Below, in pieces: positions 3,218-60,259 of a stretch of 64,000 nt of DNA. The notes under the pieces were generated by a model. The model was given only the letters and a program-made list of their open reading frames with translations, searched no databases and was not told the DNA's origin. The DNA is from Candidatus Diapherotrites archaeon (GTDB lineage Archaea > Iainarchaeota > Iainarchaeia > Iainarchaeales > 1-14-0-10-31-34), in contig JBFMAK010000003.1 in the NCBI GenBank assembly GCA_040755695.1, positions 1 to 64,000 on the forward strand, in the 5' to 3' direction. The position numbers and the translations under genes are program-made. The first letter of the stretch is position 1, and the number at the start of each line of letters is the position of its first letter.

Positions 3218-4483
3218 ATGAGCAAGACAGATTATGACGTTAAAGACATTTCATTGCACGAAAAAGGAATGCTGAAGATTGAGTGGGCTGAAAGGCAGAT
3301 GCCTGTCCTTCAACTTATAAGGAAAAGATTCGAGAAAGAAAAGCCATTGAAAGGAATAAGGATTGGAGCATGCCTTCACGTTACAACAGAGACAGCCAAT
3401 TTGGTTAGAGTGCTGAAGGAAGGCGGGGCAGAGGTAAGGTTGTGCGCCTCAAACCCCTTAAGCACGCAGGATGATGTTGCTGCAGCAATAGCAGAAGACT
3501 TGAAGATAAATGTTTATGCAATCAAGGGAGAAGACAATAATACTTACTACAAGCACTTGAATTCTGTTTTAGACTTAAAGCCTCAAATTACAATGGATGA
3601 CGGAGGCGATTTGGTCAGTGAAATCCACTCTAAAAGAACAGAGTGCCTGAAAGAAATAATCGGGGGCACAGAAGAAACAACAACTGGGGTCATTAGATTC
3701 AAGAACATGGAGAGGGACGGGGTGCTGAAGTATCCAATAATTGCAGTGAATAACGCGCAAACAAAATTCATGTTTGATAACAGGTACGGAACAGGCCAGA
3801 GCACAATAGATGGAATCCTGAGGGCAACAAATATTCTTCTTGCAGGAAGAAATGTCGTAATTGCAGGATACGGTTGGTGCGGGAGAGGACTTGCATTAAA
3901 AATGAAAGGCATGGGAGCAAATGTTACAGTAACAGAGGTTGATCATTTAAAAGGACTGGAAGCATTAATGGACGGCTTCAAGGTAGAGAGAATGGAAGAG
4001 GCTGCAAGGAATGCTGATTTAATTGTAACATTGACAGGAGACATTAATGTTGTGGACAAAAGGCACTTTGAACTTCTTAAAGACGGATGCATTCTGGCGA
4101 ATTCAGGGCATTTCAATGTGGAAATAAATATTCCAGAGCTTGCAGCAATAAGCAAGAGCAGGCGGATTATAAGGGACTTCGTTGAAGAATTCGCTTTAAA
4201 GGACGGAAAGAAAGTTTACGTGCTCGGAGAAGGAAGGCTGATCAATCTGGCTGCAGCAGAAGGCCATCCTGCAGCAGTAATGGACATGAGCTTTGCAAAC
4301 CAGGCCTTAAGCGTTGAATTCATGAAAGAGAATAAAGAAAAATTAAAAAATAAAGTGTACGATGTGCCTAAAGAAATAGATGAAAGGATCGCAAGGCTGA
4401 AATTAGAGTCAATGAATGTAGGCATTGATGAGTTAACAGAAGAGCAGAAGAAGTATTTAACTTCATGGGAGCAGGGCACATAA
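3218..4483 (+). CDS. ahcY: Adenosylhomocysteinase
   Basis: S-adenosylhomocysteine hydrolase reversibly splits the methylation by-product S-adenosylhomocysteine into adenosine and homocysteine, in the cytoplasm. At 421 residues it has the typical archaeal length. It shows the NAD-binding glycine motif ([18 protein letters not shown]), the substrate-domain segments ([15 protein letters not shown]) and the C-terminal NLAAAEGHP motif. The ATG at 3218 is preceded by AGGTGA. It lies 21 bases behind the surface-protein genes on the same strand. Confidence 0.97.
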
Positions 4484-10286: not shown

Positions 10287-11113
10287 GCGAAGGACTATTA
10301 TTTGGCCCAGCAGGAATACCTAATTCAACAAGAAAGCCTAATACAGTTGAAGGAATAAAGAGAGTGAAAGAATTAGGCTTGGAGTGCATGGAATTAGAGT
10401 TCGTGCACAGCATAAACATAAAGAAGGGTGCTGCGCCCGAAGTAAAAAAAACAGCAAAAGAGAATTCCATAAGGCTTACGGTTCATGCGCCTTATTACAT
10501 TAATTTGAATTCTTTGAGCAAGCAGACAATAGGAATGAGCAAAAGCCACGTAATAAATTCTGCTAAAATAGGCTTTCTGTGCGGGGCAGAATCAGTTGCA
10601 TTTCACGCAGCATACTACATGAAAATGGACTCGCAGGCAGTTTACGATAGGGTGAAAAAAGAAATGCAGTATATACTGAATGCGCTGAAAGAAGAAGGGA
10701 TAAAAATTTGGGTTAGGCCTGAGACAACAGGAAAGCACAGCCAGTTTGGAACCTTAGAAGAAATACTTTCACTTTCAGAAGAATTAGAGATGGTGATGCC
10801 GTGCATTGACTTCTCCCACATGCATGCAAGAACACAGAAACTTAATTCAAGGGAAGAATTCGAAGCAATTCTGGAATCAGTGGAAAAAAAATTAGGGAAG
10901 AAAGGGCTGCAAAACCTCCACTGCCATGTCTCGGGAATAAATTACTCGGAGAAAGGGGAAAGAAACCACATGCCATTGAAAGAATCTGATTTCAATTACA
11001 AGGAACTCCTCCAGTCACTAAAAGAATTCAAAGCAAAAGGCTTCATAGTGTGCGAGAGCCCGAACCTGGAAGAAGATGCTCTACTCCTCAAAAAGACTTA
11101 TGAGAAAATTTAA
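10283..11113 (+). CDS. AP endonuclease family 2 / endonuclease IV-like TIM-barrel protein
   Basis: The 276 residues form a probable TIM barrel of the xylose-isomerase-like family that includes endonuclease IV. Metal-ligand-like positions are visible: LTVHAPYYINL, VAFHAAYY, WVRPETTG, CIDFSHMHA, NLHCHVSG and FIVCESP. Endonuclease IV cuts DNA at abasic sites in base-excision repair, which would fit the two DNA glycosylases elsewhere in this window. Overlap with a surface-protein gene suggests co-transcription only. Confidence 0.85.
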   Translation: MSEGLLFGPAGIPNSTRKPNTVEGIKRVKELGLECMELEFVHSINIKKGAAPEVKKTAKENSIRLTVHAPYYINLNSLSKQTIGMSKSHVINSAKIGFLCGAESVAFHAAYYMKMDSQAVYDRVKKEMQYILNALKEEGIKIWVRPETTGKHSQFGTLEEILSLSEELEMVMPCIDFSHMHARTQKLNSREEFEAILESVEKKLGKKGLQNLHCHVSGINYSEKGERNHMPLKESDFNYKELLQSLKEFKAKGFIVCESPNLEEDALLLKKTYEKI

Positions 11114-11555
11114 TGCCAACGTATTTTATGGATTGGAGCTAAAATTCCTTTTCTTCTAAGCTCTCTATGCACTCTCTTTGGATTTTTGTGTTTAGCAATC
11201 TTTGCGCCAGCTTCTCTAATTAAAGCTTCCCTTCTAGACTTTCTTATTTCAGTTTTCGGTACTAATCTGTATTTGGGTTCACTTTTTTCTTTTATTTGAA
11301 TTAATTCAATTGGAACAGAGAAAGTGCCAGTCATTTTTAATATTGTTGTAGTCTGAAACTTGTCTAATTTTTTGTCCAAATGTAACCATTGATACAAGCC
11401 TTTTTGCCCAAGTGGACCTTTTAGTATTTCGCAGGCCCTAAAACAACACAGGGGAATTTTTTATGACCTAAAACAACAGTTACTGTCTGCCCTTTTTTGT
11501 ACGGAAAATCAGCTCTGTTCTTTTTAATTTCTTTTTCTGCTGGAATTTTCACCAT
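11110..11555 (-). pseudogene. Small basic protein gene split by a frameshift
   Basis: On the minus strand ATG 11555 opens a 44-residue frame ending TAA at 11421-11423 (ending KKFPCVVLGPAKY). The frame that follows has no ATG, only a TTG at 11397, yet reads on without a break as a basic 95-residue protein (ending ILAPIHKIRWH), and its frame extends upstream through KGPLGQKG over the end of the first frame. Joining the two by a shift near 11418-11426 gives one protein of about 145 residues with a TATA box (agtatttaaacg, 11592-11603) at the right distance from ATG 11555. It could be a decayed gene, a sequencing indel or a recoded gene. No family recognised. Confidence 0.55.
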
Positions 11556-11679
11556 AAAATTTCACTTCTGCAAAGTACTAATGCTTTCAAAAGTATTTAA
11601 ACGTTTCTGCAATCAACGTATAAAAAAATTTAAAACCCTTTCAGCAATCAATTCTATTTAATTTGAGAGTTGGTTTTTA

Positions 11680-12099
11680 TTGCAGAAAAGATTTTATGTT
11701 GATACTTCGGTCTGGCTTGATTACTATGGCGACAGGAAAGATGGCATTAGGCCGTTGGGAGAGTTTGCCTTCAAATTCTTCAAGCATTGCAATGAAAATA
11801 ATTGCAAGGTGTTTTTTTCAGATTTTGTCCTTTTTGAACTCAAAGAGTTCTTTCCAGAGAAAGAAATAAAAATCCTGTTTTCAGTAATAAAAAAGAATTT
11901 GCTTATGAAAGTTAGTGTCTCAGAAAAGCAATTAATGGAAGCAAATAAAATAAAAAAGGTTTTCAAAGAAATTCCTTTGAATGACATTATCCATGCAATT
12001 ATGGCAAGGGATTCAAATGCAGTACTGATATCAAGGGACAAACACTTTGAAGATTTATCTGCAATAGTTGAATGCAGACCTCCAGAGGAAATTATTTGA
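11680..12099 (+). CDS. vapC: PIN-domain toxin, VapC family
   Basis: PIN domains are Mg-dependent ribonucleases; VapC toxins cut tRNA or rRNA. The 139 residues show the PIN acidic residues: FYVDTSVWLDYY at the start, a Glu in FVLFELKEFF, NDIIHAIMARD, and the closing LISRDKHFEDL. The TTG start follows a TTGGTTTTT leader that is shared with the PIN gene at 27169. It converges with an RHH gene on the other strand and overlaps it by 8 bases, unlike the usual co-directional vapBC operon. Confidence 0.85.
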   Translation: MQKRFYVDTSVWLDYYGDRKDGIRPLGEFAFKFFKHCNENNCKVFFSDFVLFELKEFFPEKEIKILFSVIKKNLLMKVSVSEKQLMEANKIKKVFKEIPLNDIIHAIMARDSNAVLISRDKHFEDLSAIVECRPPEEII

Positions 12100-12358
12100 A
12101 TCTTTTGCTGAGTTCCCTTTCTAGTTCCCTGCTTAGTTTTTCCCTTACTGCTTCAAGCTCTTCCTCTGAAACAGCACGTGAAGCAGTACCTTTCACTGCA
12201 TAAAGCCTTTTCATGGCACGCCTGTTCTCCAAGGCATCAAGCTTGTCTCTTATTGCCTCTCTTATAAATTCAGTTTTAGTGCTGTAATTGAATTTCCTCA
12301 TTGCCTTGTTAATTTTTTTCAGAAATCCTTCGCCTAATTTGACAGTTAAAACATCCAT
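12092..12358 (-). CDS. Ribbon-helix-helix protein, probable antitoxin of the convergent PIN toxin
   Basis: ATG 12358 gives 88 residues (an alternative start lies three codons upstream). The N-terminus (DVLTVKLGEGFLKKINKAMR) and STKTEFIREAIRDKL form an RHH DNA-binding fold as in CopG/VapB antitoxins. The C-terminal half is a charged helix that could wrap a toxin. Two direct repeats of AATACAAA lie between the TATA box and the start and are likely its own operator. It is tail-to-tail with the PIN gene. Confidence 0.75.
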   Translation of the reverse strand: MDVLTVKLGEGFLKKINKAMRKFNYSTKTEFIREAIRDKLDALENRRAMKRLYAVKGTASRAVSEEELEAVREKLSRELERELSKRFK

Positions 12359-12360
12359 AT

Positions 12361-12395
12361 AATACAAAGTAATACAAAATAATATTTAAATATTA
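12361..12395 (-). promoter_or_regulatory. Promoter and probable operator of the RHH gene
   Basis: A TATA box AATATTTAAATATT (12381-12394) sits 25-30 bases upstream of the ATG, with two direct repeats AATACAAAG / AATACAAAA (12361-12369 and 12371-12379, 10-base spacing) in between. Repeats one helical turn apart suit binding by an RHH dimer pair. Confidence 0.55.
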
Positions 12396-27008: not shown

Positions 27009-27080
27009 GGGAGGGTGGCGCAGTGGTAGCGCAATCGGCTGATAACCGATAGGTCATGGGTCCGAGTCCCATCCTTCCCA
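27009..27080 (+). tRNA. tRNA-Ile (GAU)
   Basis: A complete cloverleaf: acceptor GGGAGGG/CCTTCCC, D-arm GCGC...GCGC, anticodon stem ATCGG/CCGAT around CTGATAA (anticodon GAU), T-arm ATGGG/CCCAT with loop TCCGAGT. Two C of the CCA end follow. No intron. A T-run directly downstream may terminate it. Confidence 0.95.
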
Positions 27081-27168
27081 CCTTTTTTTATTTTTTGTTT
27101 CGTCGATTCACGTTTGGCTTGATTTTTATTTTTATTGCATTGACTTAATTTTCAGAGAGTTGGTTTTT

Positions 27169-27606
27169 TTGAGACTGTATCTTGATTCCAATGTCTTCAT
27201 TTCTCTTGTGCGCGAAGAAATCAACGGAAGCTTAAATATATTGTTCAAGGACACAGAGCTGTTTCTCTCGATTTGTTCAAAAAAGAATTTTTCATTGCTT
27301 CTTTCTTATTGGTTCTTTAAAGAAATAGAAAAATCAGTTTTTCTTCAAAAAGAGGAAGTGGTTGAATTACTGAAAAGTAATTATGCCGTTTTGATTCAAG
27401 AAATTAAGAGAGGAAAAGGATATTACCTTGAAATGAAAAATATAGCTAGAGAAACAGGAATTCGTTTTGGAGACGCTTTGCATATTGCAATAGCACTTGA
27501 CTCTAAGGCAGACTTAATTGTTTCCTGGAACAAAAAAGATTTCCTTAAAGCCAGAAGCCTGATAAATTGTTTGAACCCAAAAGAATTCATTGAGGAGTTC
27601 ACTTAA
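27169..27606 (+). CDS. PIN-domain toxin
   Basis: The 145-residue product shows PIN acidic positions (LYLDSNVFISLV, a Glu in FKEIEK, FGDALHIAIALD, IVSWNKKDF). PIN proteins are ribonucleases. TTG 27169 follows a GAGAGTTGGTTTTT leader shared with the PIN gene at 11680; a TTG three codons earlier is possible. It converges on an RHH gene with a 4-base overlap, repeating the arrangement at 11680-12358. Confidence 0.82.
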   Translation: MRLYLDSNVFISLVREEINGSLNILFKDTELFLSICSKKNFSLLLSYWFFKEIEKSVFLQKEEVVELLKSNYAVLIQEIKRGKGYYLEMKNIARETGIRFGDALHIAIALDSKADLIVSWNKKDFLKARSLINCLNPKEFIEEFT

Positions 27607-27875
27607 GCATATTTTAATGCCAGCTTATCTCTTTCTTCTTGTGTTAAGTGATGGTATCGTTTAATCTTTTTCCTGAGCTTTAATGTTGCCTTGTGAACTC
27701 TCTTCATCTCTTCCTCTAAACCCATCAGCTGAATTATCCTCTGCCTTTCGGCATCCCTCAAGAACTCGCTTTTGGAATGATAGGCTTCAGTTTTCTCTAT
27801 CGTCCTATCCACTAATTTAGCGAAGCCTGGCTCAGCAGAGAAACTCATTATTGTCTTTCCTTTAGAGTTAACCAT
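27603..27875 (-). CDS. Ribbon-helix-helix antitoxin-like protein
   Basis: ATG 27875 gives 90 residues. TIMSFSAEPGFAKLVDRTIE and SKSEFLRDAERQRI form an RHH fold; the C-terminal helix is charged (KRVHKATLKLRKKIKRYHHL). A perfect inverted repeat lies directly upstream of the start and is a likely autoregulatory operator. Convergent with the PIN gene. Confidence 0.75.
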   Translation of the reverse strand: MVNSKGKTIMSFSAEPGFAKLVDRTIEKTEAYHSKSEFLRDAERQRIIQLMGLEEEMKRVHKATLKLRKKIKRYHHLTQEERDKLALKYA

Positions 27876-27903
27876 AAAACAGTAATTCCATGAAAACTGT
27901 TTT
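27876..27903 (-). promoter_or_regulatory. Operator palindrome at the RHH start
   Basis: AAAACAGT (27876-27883) and ACTGTTTT (27896-27903) form a perfect 8-bp inverted repeat with a 12-base spacer, abutting the ATG and overlapping the expected transcription start; a TATA-like TTATTAAAA lies just upstream on the minus strand. This suits repression by the RHH protein itself. Confidence 0.6.
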
Positions 27904-27972
27904 AATAATATGCTATTAAAACCCAATAACTAATTAAAAAACAAAAAGAAAAAGAAAGAAAGGAATTGCTTT

Positions 27973-55053: not shown

Positions 55054-55401
55054 ATGAAAAAAGAGTATATCAGTGCAACAAAAGAGTTTGCAAGGCTTGC
55101 CTTAAATTCAAATGAATCAGCCGTAGTAATACAGAACGCCCACAAGGCAGTAGAGTTCGCTTTGTCTGTTTATGCAATAGAAAAAAGGCTTGCTTTGCCA
55201 AGAGACCATTGGCAGTCAAAGGATCTTTCCTATAAAATAAGCACAGAGTTTGGCAAGAACTTTGCTGAATTGCTCAGAATGTATTTAGGGGCCTACAGGC
55301 TTGAAAACGGCAAAAACGCAAAGAAGGCAAAAGAATTAATGATTAAAATGTTAAAAGAGTTGGAAATCTATGTTAGGCAGACTTTCCTCGCTGACAAATA
55401 G
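55054..55401 (+). CDS. HEPN-domain protein (toxin of a HEPN-MNT pair)
   Basis: ATG 55054 gives 115 residues. The helical protein shows the HEPN layout: EFARLALNSNESAVVIQNAH, AHKAVEFALSVYAIEK, and a later AKELMIKMLKELE helix. The RX4-6H RNase motif is not clear, as in many MNT-linked HEPN proteins. It overlaps the nucleotidyltransferase gene by 32 bases. Confidence 0.82.
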   Translation: MKKEYISATKEFARLALNSNESAVVIQNAHKAVEFALSVYAIEKRLALPRDHWQSKDLSYKISTEFGKNFAELLRMYLGAYRLENGKNAKKAKELMIKMLKELEIYVRQTFLADK

Positions 55402-55990
55402 ACTTGCGGGAATTCCTGAGATTTATGCTATAATATTATATGGCTCTTACGCAAAAAAGGCTCAAGGAAAAAAAAGCGACATAGACTTACTGATAATCGC
55501 CGAAAAAAGCAATGAAAAATTAAAGAAGAAAATAAACGAGATAATTGAAAACCAGAAAATTGGAAGAAAAGTAGTTCAAACTGTTATAACAGAAAAGGAA
55601 TTAAGCAAAAGCCCCTACTATTTATTTGATGTTCTTAGAGATGGCATTGTTCTTTACAAAAACCCCAAAGCATTAATTAAACTTCCATTGGCATTAAAGG
55701 AACAAGCCGTAACAGTCTATTCTTTTACTCTTTCAAAAATGAGCCACAAGAATAGGGCAAGAATAAACAGGGAATTATACGGCGAAAAATCAAGAAAAAA
55801 AATAGGAAAAAAATATAAACTTTACAAATATTTAGGAGTCATAGAAAAAGTAAAAGGAATTAAATTAGGGAAAGGAAGCATTCTAACCCCAAGCAAAGCA
55901 GAAAAAGAAATAGAAAAACTATTCAAAAAATATAAGTTGAAGTACGAAAAAATTCACTTGATAGAAATAGAAAAAGAAAGGGTTGAATGA
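55370..55990 (+). CDS. Minimal nucleotidyltransferase (MNT, antitoxin of a HEPN-MNT pair)
   Basis: The 206-residue product has the nucleotidyltransferase signature ILYGSYAKKAQGKKSDIDLL (GS-x10-D-x-D) in its first third. In known pairs MNT adds AMP groups to the HEPN partner and silences it. The C-terminal half is an extra Lys-rich region. It ends just before pyrD. Confidence 0.86.
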   Translation: MLGRLSSLTNRLAGIPEIYAIILYGSYAKKAQGKKSDIDLLIIAEKSNEKLKKKINEIIENQKIGRKVVQTVITEKELSKSPYYLFDVLRDGIVLYKNPKALIKLPLALKEQAVTVYSFTLSKMSHKNRARINRELYGEKSRKKIGKKYKLYKYLGVIEKVKGIKLGKGSILTPSKAEKEIEKLFKKYKLKYEKIHLIEIEKERVE

Positions 55991-59621: not shown

Positions 59622-59870
59622 ATGGCATCAAAAACTCTTACTATAAGAAAGGACGTTTATGACGCACTGATTAGAGCAAAAGAGGATGACGAAAGCTTCA
59701 GCGAAATGTTTGAAAGATTGCTTACAGAAAAGAAACCAGACCTACTAAAGTATGCGGGAATCTGGAAAATCAGTGAAAAGGAAAAGAAAGGAATCGAAAG
59801 AGAAATAAAAAAAATGCGTAAGAGTGCAGACAAAAATTTTGAGGAAAGACTTAGAAGGATTTTATCATGA
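59622..59870 (+). CDS. vapB: VapB-type antitoxin
   Basis: ATG 59622 behind GGTGATAT gives 82 residues. SKTLTIRKDVYDALIRAKED and ESFSEMFERLLTEK form the RHH-like DNA-binding part of archaeal VapB (UPF0330-like); the Lys/Glu-rich tail would bind the toxin. It overlaps vapC by ATGA. Confidence 0.88.
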   Translation: MASKTLTIRKDVYDALIRAKEDDESFSEMFERLLTEKKPDLLKYAGIWKISEKEKKGIEREIKKMRKSADKNFEERLRRILS

Positions 59871-60259
59871 AAGTTCTTGACACCGACTTTTTAATAGAAT
59901 TGTTTAGAGGTAATCAGCAGACAAAAAATTTTTTGCTTAACCTTCAATTAAAAGGGGAAGAAATTACAACAACGGTTTTTAATTATCAAGAAACTTTGTT
60001 TGGAATGGTATTAAAAAAAGATGAAATAGCAATAGAAAAAGCAAAAATGTTTTTTCAATCAATTAAGATATTTAATTATAATGAAAAAGCTGTTATTGAG
60101 GGCATTAAGGTTCAATTGGTATTAAGAAAAAAGGGAAAAGCAATTGGCTTATTTGATGAAATGATTTCAGGGATTTGCATTGCAAACAATGCAACGTTAG
60201 TAACAAGGAATGCAAAGCATTTCAGCCAAGTTCCAAATCTTAAAATTAAAGTGTGGTAA
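59867..60259 (+). CDS. vapC: VapC-type PIN ribonuclease toxin
   Basis: The 130 residues show the PIN acidic residues in KVLDTDFLIELFRG, TTVFNYQETLFG, GLFDEMISGICIANN and LVTRNAKHFSQV. This is the standard co-directional vapBC layout, in contrast to the two convergent PIN/RHH pairs elsewhere in the window. Confidence 0.92.
   Translation: MKVLDTDFLIELFRGNQQTKNFLLNLQLKGEEITTTVFNYQETLFGMVLKKDEIAIEKAKMFFQSIKIFNYNEKAVIEGIKVQLVLRKKGKAIGLFDEMISGICIANNATLVTRNAKHFSQVPNLKIKVW

Follow-up and report, generated by a model that had tools for sequence, protein, structure and literature searches.

A conserved tail-to-tail PIN/RHH gene pair of archaea: a probable VapBC-like toxin-antitoxin system with separate promoters

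Type II toxin-antitoxin systems are usually detected, named and modelled on the assumption that both genes lie in one co-directional operon, with a common promoter that the complex represses. What, then, is to be made of a PIN-domain gene and a ribbon-helix-helix (RHH) gene that face each other and overlap at their 3' ends? This question is raised by a locus in a 64,000-nucleotide stretch of a Diapherotrites genome (hereafter, the window). The PIN gene (11680..12099, plus strand) starts with TTG and encodes 139 residues, and the RHH gene (12092..12358, minus strand) starts with ATG and encodes 88 residues, as deduced from open reading frames and sequence. The 8 bp that they share (12092-12099) cover both stop codons and the codons next to them, exactly the tail-to-tail arrangement described in a previous sequence-only reading of this DNA. 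The same reading had set against it the pair at 59622-60259, and this is indeed co-directional, with a VAPB_antitox gene first and a PIN gene after it (Pfam), and provides a fair contrast within the same genome. Elsewhere in the window, two small open reading frames upstream of the focal PIN gene (11110-11397 and 11424-11555, both on the minus strand) gave no family match above cut-off, and 55370-55990 (plus strand) encodes a Polbeta/NTP_transf_2 nucleotidyltransferase.

The focal PIN protein matches PF01850 above cut-off (E 2.6e-8), and the family alignment places its catalytic acids at D8, E53, D102 and D120, the first two being invariant in the family and the other two almost so. Its AlphaFold2 model has a pLDDT of 91.8, and the best fold matches in the PDB are VapC toxins; the protein is probably a metal-dependent RNase. 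The RHH protein (AlphaFold2 model with a pLDDT of 83.7) gave weak matches to RHH_1, RHH_8 and VapB in Pfam, of which that to RHH_1 lies barely above cut-off (E 2.4e-4). It consists of an N-terminal ribbon-helix-helix followed by a C-terminal segment that probably binds the toxin.

The arrangement was then looked for in relatives, mostly MAGs of Diapherotrites/Iainarchaeota together with the closed AR10 genome. RHH genes were sought in every orientation at the 115 distinct PIN loci gathered, and 93 of these have a convergent RHH neighbour. The association is near-universal in two PIN subfamilies, A (YLDTxIWRDYFEDRxDGxRPLGEFAFxFL), to which the focal toxin belongs, and B (YLDSNVFISxxxxEIG), both almost always convergent with an RHH gene, and it is not seen in unrelated PIN genes of the same set, such as those of the DTFAWVEYF type. 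No co-directional version of the convergent subfamilies was found among these 115 loci and 40 further PIN genes. Among the 86 non-redundant PIN/RHH pairs of the phylum, 78 overlap (91%; median 12 bp), as compared to 19 of 61 (31%) other convergent neighbours at the same loci, these controls being crude ORF calls (Fisher p 2.8e-14).

The host genome (1.30 Mb) contains several related PIN genes, and we counted in it seven tail-to-tail PIN/RHH pairs, with overlaps of 4 to 50 bp; one of the toxins is interrupted. Two of the seven fall inside the window. The second, which the sequence-only reading had passed over, consists of a subfamily B PIN toxin at 27169..27606 on the plus strand (PF01850, E 1.3e-7) and an RHH-like antitoxin at 27603..27875 on the minus strand, which overlaps it by 4 bp, matches the family HMM (E 4e-5) and has no Pfam family above cut-off. 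This pair follows directly on a tRNA-Ile gene (27009-27082); tRNA genes are typical insertion sites. The occurrence of seven pairs in one genome, together with the 91% vs. 31% overlap in relatives, indicates that the convergent overlap is not a product of chance.

Toxin and antitoxin also share their history. Across the relatives the PIN and RHH trees correlate with a rho of 0.84 (0.81 within subfamily A and 0.68 within B; 0 of 999 permutations in each case), and among the host's own seven pairs the toxin and antitoxin distances correlate with a rho of 0.86, with 17 of 5040 permutations as good. Matching trees do not exclude a simple shared host history, although the many paralogues per genome weaken this objection. 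At the same time, only 64 of 3741 locus pairs have a flanking homologue in common, and in three relatives of the same family adk is present with no PIN/RHH pair beside it. Since the pair is constant while its flanks change, PIN and RHH move or persist as a unit. Variable neighbours in relatives had been named beforehand as an outcome that would speak against a functional pairing; what varies is the surroundings, and the two partners stay together.

The layout extends to a second phylum. In the Nanoarchaeota, sampled through a MAG with a related locus (L108), the PIN family is present in 116 of 371 genomes. We read in detail 40 PIN genes, from genomes of this phylum and a few other DPANN archaea; a convergent RHH gene lies beside 39 of them, usually with an overlap of exactly 9 bp, these being best matches and hence not unbiased frequencies. 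The single exception is L108/L212. The family is all but missing from the Micrarchaeota (the phylum of L103), where 2 of 295 genomes have it. A search for relatives of the pair in collections of plasmids, viral contigs and defence-system models returned none, and therefore a phage or plasmid carrier is unsupported by the collections searched.

Signs of decay point in one direction. A stop or a frameshift interrupts six toxin genes (L040, L098, L045, L106, L103 and L101; they are from MAGs, and assembly errors may account for some), and the adjoining antitoxin is intact in all six cases. The reverse, a broken antitoxin beside an intact toxin, was not seen among the loci examined. To judge from the gene sequences, this direction fits the decay of a toxin-antitoxin pair. 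Three antitoxins have lost the RHH half (L080, a closed genome, at 3419-3628; L092 at 1664-1873; L027 at about 1297-1502). The RHH operator has gone as well, and what is kept is the convergent position and the C-terminal segment (AxxRGxxKGKGxAKTDEEF). From this retention we infer that the toxin is bound by this segment and that the system can do without DNA binding. The covariation between PIN and RHH favours the C-terminal half of the latter, weakly and with 82 sequences only. Upstream of the L080 antitoxin lies a different inverted repeat, TTACCTCAAACAGGTAA, as if another repressor had taken over.

The two genes, for each of which a promoter of its own had been proposed, differ in their upstream sequence elements. 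The focal RHH gene is preceded by an inferred TATA-like box (12383..12392, minus strand), whose geometry is conserved, and, between this box and the start codon, by the operator-like repeat TTGTATTACTTTGTATTA (12360..12377, minus strand; a 20.6-bit match to the RHH-upstream motif); the second RHH gene likewise has an operator-like palindrome in its upstream region, TTTAATAGCATATTATTA (27903..27920, minus strand; 16.0 bits). In the family, subfamily A has GTATTACaTtGTATTA as the repeat between TATA box and start, whereas subfamily B has TAaTAACATgTTATTA, and neither motif finds the other subfamily, as expected of self-specific operators, which they may well be. The RHH-upstream motif occurs in 60 of 88 antitoxin promoters vs. 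4 of 91 toxin promoters. On these counts, together with the subfamily specificity of the motifs, a common RHH operator at both promoters was rejected.

Toxin promoters of Diapherotrites often carry an element of their own, the palindrome TtcGgCAATTGaCGAAaa, which lies some 60 to 44 bases upstream of the start; a TTCGGCAATTGCCGAA-like form is common to both toxin subfamilies. In cross-validation, the pattern learned from subfamily A finds 19 of 38 B promoters vs. 23 of 295 controls (p 9e-10), and the one learned from B finds 20 of 53 A promoters (p 1e-7). The match is imperfect in the host genome, where the element is represented by TTCTGCAATCAACGTATA upstream of the focal PIN gene (11605..11622, plus strand; 15.0/13.0 bits on the two strands) and by a palindrome of the same type upstream of the second (27099..27116, plus strand; 14.1/12.6 bits). 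In a further set of loci, mostly from Nanoarchaeota, it was seen once only. A genome-wide regulon was considered and rejected, the exact pattern occurring 27 times in the host genome vs. 23 for the reversed control. Given this lack of excess, and a strongest match in the window that falls in the coding sequence of PurS, we keep the enrichment at toxin promoters only as a lead. As a separate observation, AGAGTTGGTTTTT, a possible leader or ribosome-binding element, stands directly before the TTG start of the focal PIN gene (11666..11678, plus strand) and identically at 27156-27168 before the second; it has just these two matches in the window, both toxin starts are non-ATG, and similar sequences precede other PIN genes of the lineage that start with GTG or TTG (L124, L009 and L107).

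The sequence beyond the stop codons is asymmetric. Runs of T are the usual archaeal terminator signal, and a run of at least 5 within 80 bases follows the toxin stop in 74 of 88 pairs and the antitoxin stop in 37 of 88; runs of at least 7 follow 23 vs. 2 of 88, these tracts being due in part to the Lys codons of the Lys-rich antitoxin C-termini. The tract of the focal pair is modest, a T5 at 12137..12141 (plus strand), 38 bp after the PIN stop and within the 3' coding region of the RHH gene, and is a candidate toxin terminator. Because candidate terminators follow the toxin stop and not that of the antitoxin, any antisense RNA made by read-through would originate from the antitoxin gene and extend over that of the toxin. 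The simplest reading, which we put forward tentatively, is that toxin transcripts may stop inside the last codons of the antitoxin gene, while those of the antitoxin may continue antisense over the toxin gene.

Taken together, these observations make it probable that the locus is a chromosomal VapBC-like toxin-antitoxin pair with separate promoters. The components are VapBC-like, and the layout is not. As in VapBC systems (M. tuberculosis VapBC11 and VapBC15, FitAB and P. horikoshii VapC4), a PIN fold with four acidic positions is adjacent to a small antitoxin composed of an RHH domain and a C-terminal extension, the three natural variants excepted as regards DNA binding, and operator-like repeats lie at the antitoxin start. 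Known VapBC pairs, however, are co-directional operons with the antitoxin first, autoregulated jointly, whereas the present genes converge and overlap, and the RHH motif, to go by its presence at only 4 of 91 PIN promoters, would not allow the antitoxin to repress the promoter that drives the toxin. In the mechanism that we propose, the convergent, 3'-overlapping layout is obligate and conserved across DPANN archaea; the C-terminal segment of the RHH protein would bind and block the PIN protein, and the RHH dimer would repress its own promoter only, at the repeats that lie behind the TATA box and ahead of the start codon. Since the toxin promoter appears to be separate and devoid of an RHH operator, the doses of toxin and antitoxin would be set separately.

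ParDE and NikR-CopG resemble the RHH protein in the domain itself, by sequence and fold, but here the partner is a PIN protein instead of ParE and the C-terminal segment is different. The nearest precedent for the layout is provided by the type I systems Fst RNAI/RNAII and BsrG-SR4, which have convergent promoters and 3'-overlapping toxin and antitoxin transcripts (PMC3874152). Their antitoxin is an RNA and their toxin a small membrane peptide, whereas the convergent partner described here encodes a conserved protein family, at variance with the type I rule of an antitoxin that works without a protein product; pairing of the transcripts is in our case putative. A comprehensive survey of PIN/RHH toxin-antitoxin pairs (Makarova et al., 2009; PMC2701414) presents them as operons, and the word "convergent" is absent from it. 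A full-text literature search, in a collection with few subscription papers and no bioRxiv preprints, retrieved no description of a convergent PIN/RHH system.

How much of the overlap is functional is a matter of competing readings. It is possible, though we hold it with some reserve, that the family is a hybrid of types I and II, in which one antitoxin gene would yield both a protein that blocks PIN and, by read-through, an antisense RNA to silence the toxin mRNA, with selection maintaining the overlap in two archaeal phyla: the toxin transcript would probably terminate at the T-tract just within the antitoxin codons, and that of the antitoxin, with no obvious terminator there, would probably run into the toxin gene and silence it at the RNA level. 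A purely type II pair, with VapBC-like proteins and an overlap that serves only to hold the genes together where genomes are compact and modules are often transferred, contests only the antisense part of this proposal, and its chances come close to even. It accounts for flanks that vary around a stable pair and for overlap lengths that differ by lineage, as expected if an exact overlap is not needed, and Lys codons could account for the tracts after the toxin. However, a linked pair could also be co-directional, yet no such version was found at the loci examined, and the terminator-like tracts are strongly asymmetric.

It is improbable that an ordinary repressor (RHH) and a housekeeping RNase (PIN) are adjacent here by accident or for a non-toxic regulation. 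The likeness of the RHH domain to the DNA-binding domains of NikR, ParD and CopG would suit such a role, but antitoxins without the DNA-binding half persist, the decay affects toxins only, presence is patchy and sites are variable, and the RHH operator is missing from the toxin promoter. As for the chance that misassembly or miscalled ORFs created the layout, most relatives are MAGs; nevertheless the layout is found in a closed genome (CP010424, locus L080) and in many independent assemblies and contigs from two phyla, which exclude this explanation to near certainty. The VapBC-like pair with separate promoters is the reading that we retain. The toxin-antitoxin relationship of the sequence-only reading is upheld by conserved pairing, matched trees and toxin-only decay, as are its convergent layout, which proves to be conserved, and its separate promoters, with their different cis elements; the antisense control that it had also suggested would, if the hybrid reading is true, acquire a direction, from antitoxin to toxin.

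With members that are nearly always convergent, this family breaks the operon model of type II systems: in this layout one promoter cannot tie the dose of the toxin to that of the antitoxin. Standard same-strand searches would miss such pairs, and many members of the family fall below Pfam cut-offs; toxin-antitoxin counts for DPANN archaea are therefore probably too low. The regulation of their convergent pairs needs an explanation different from the shared-promoter model.
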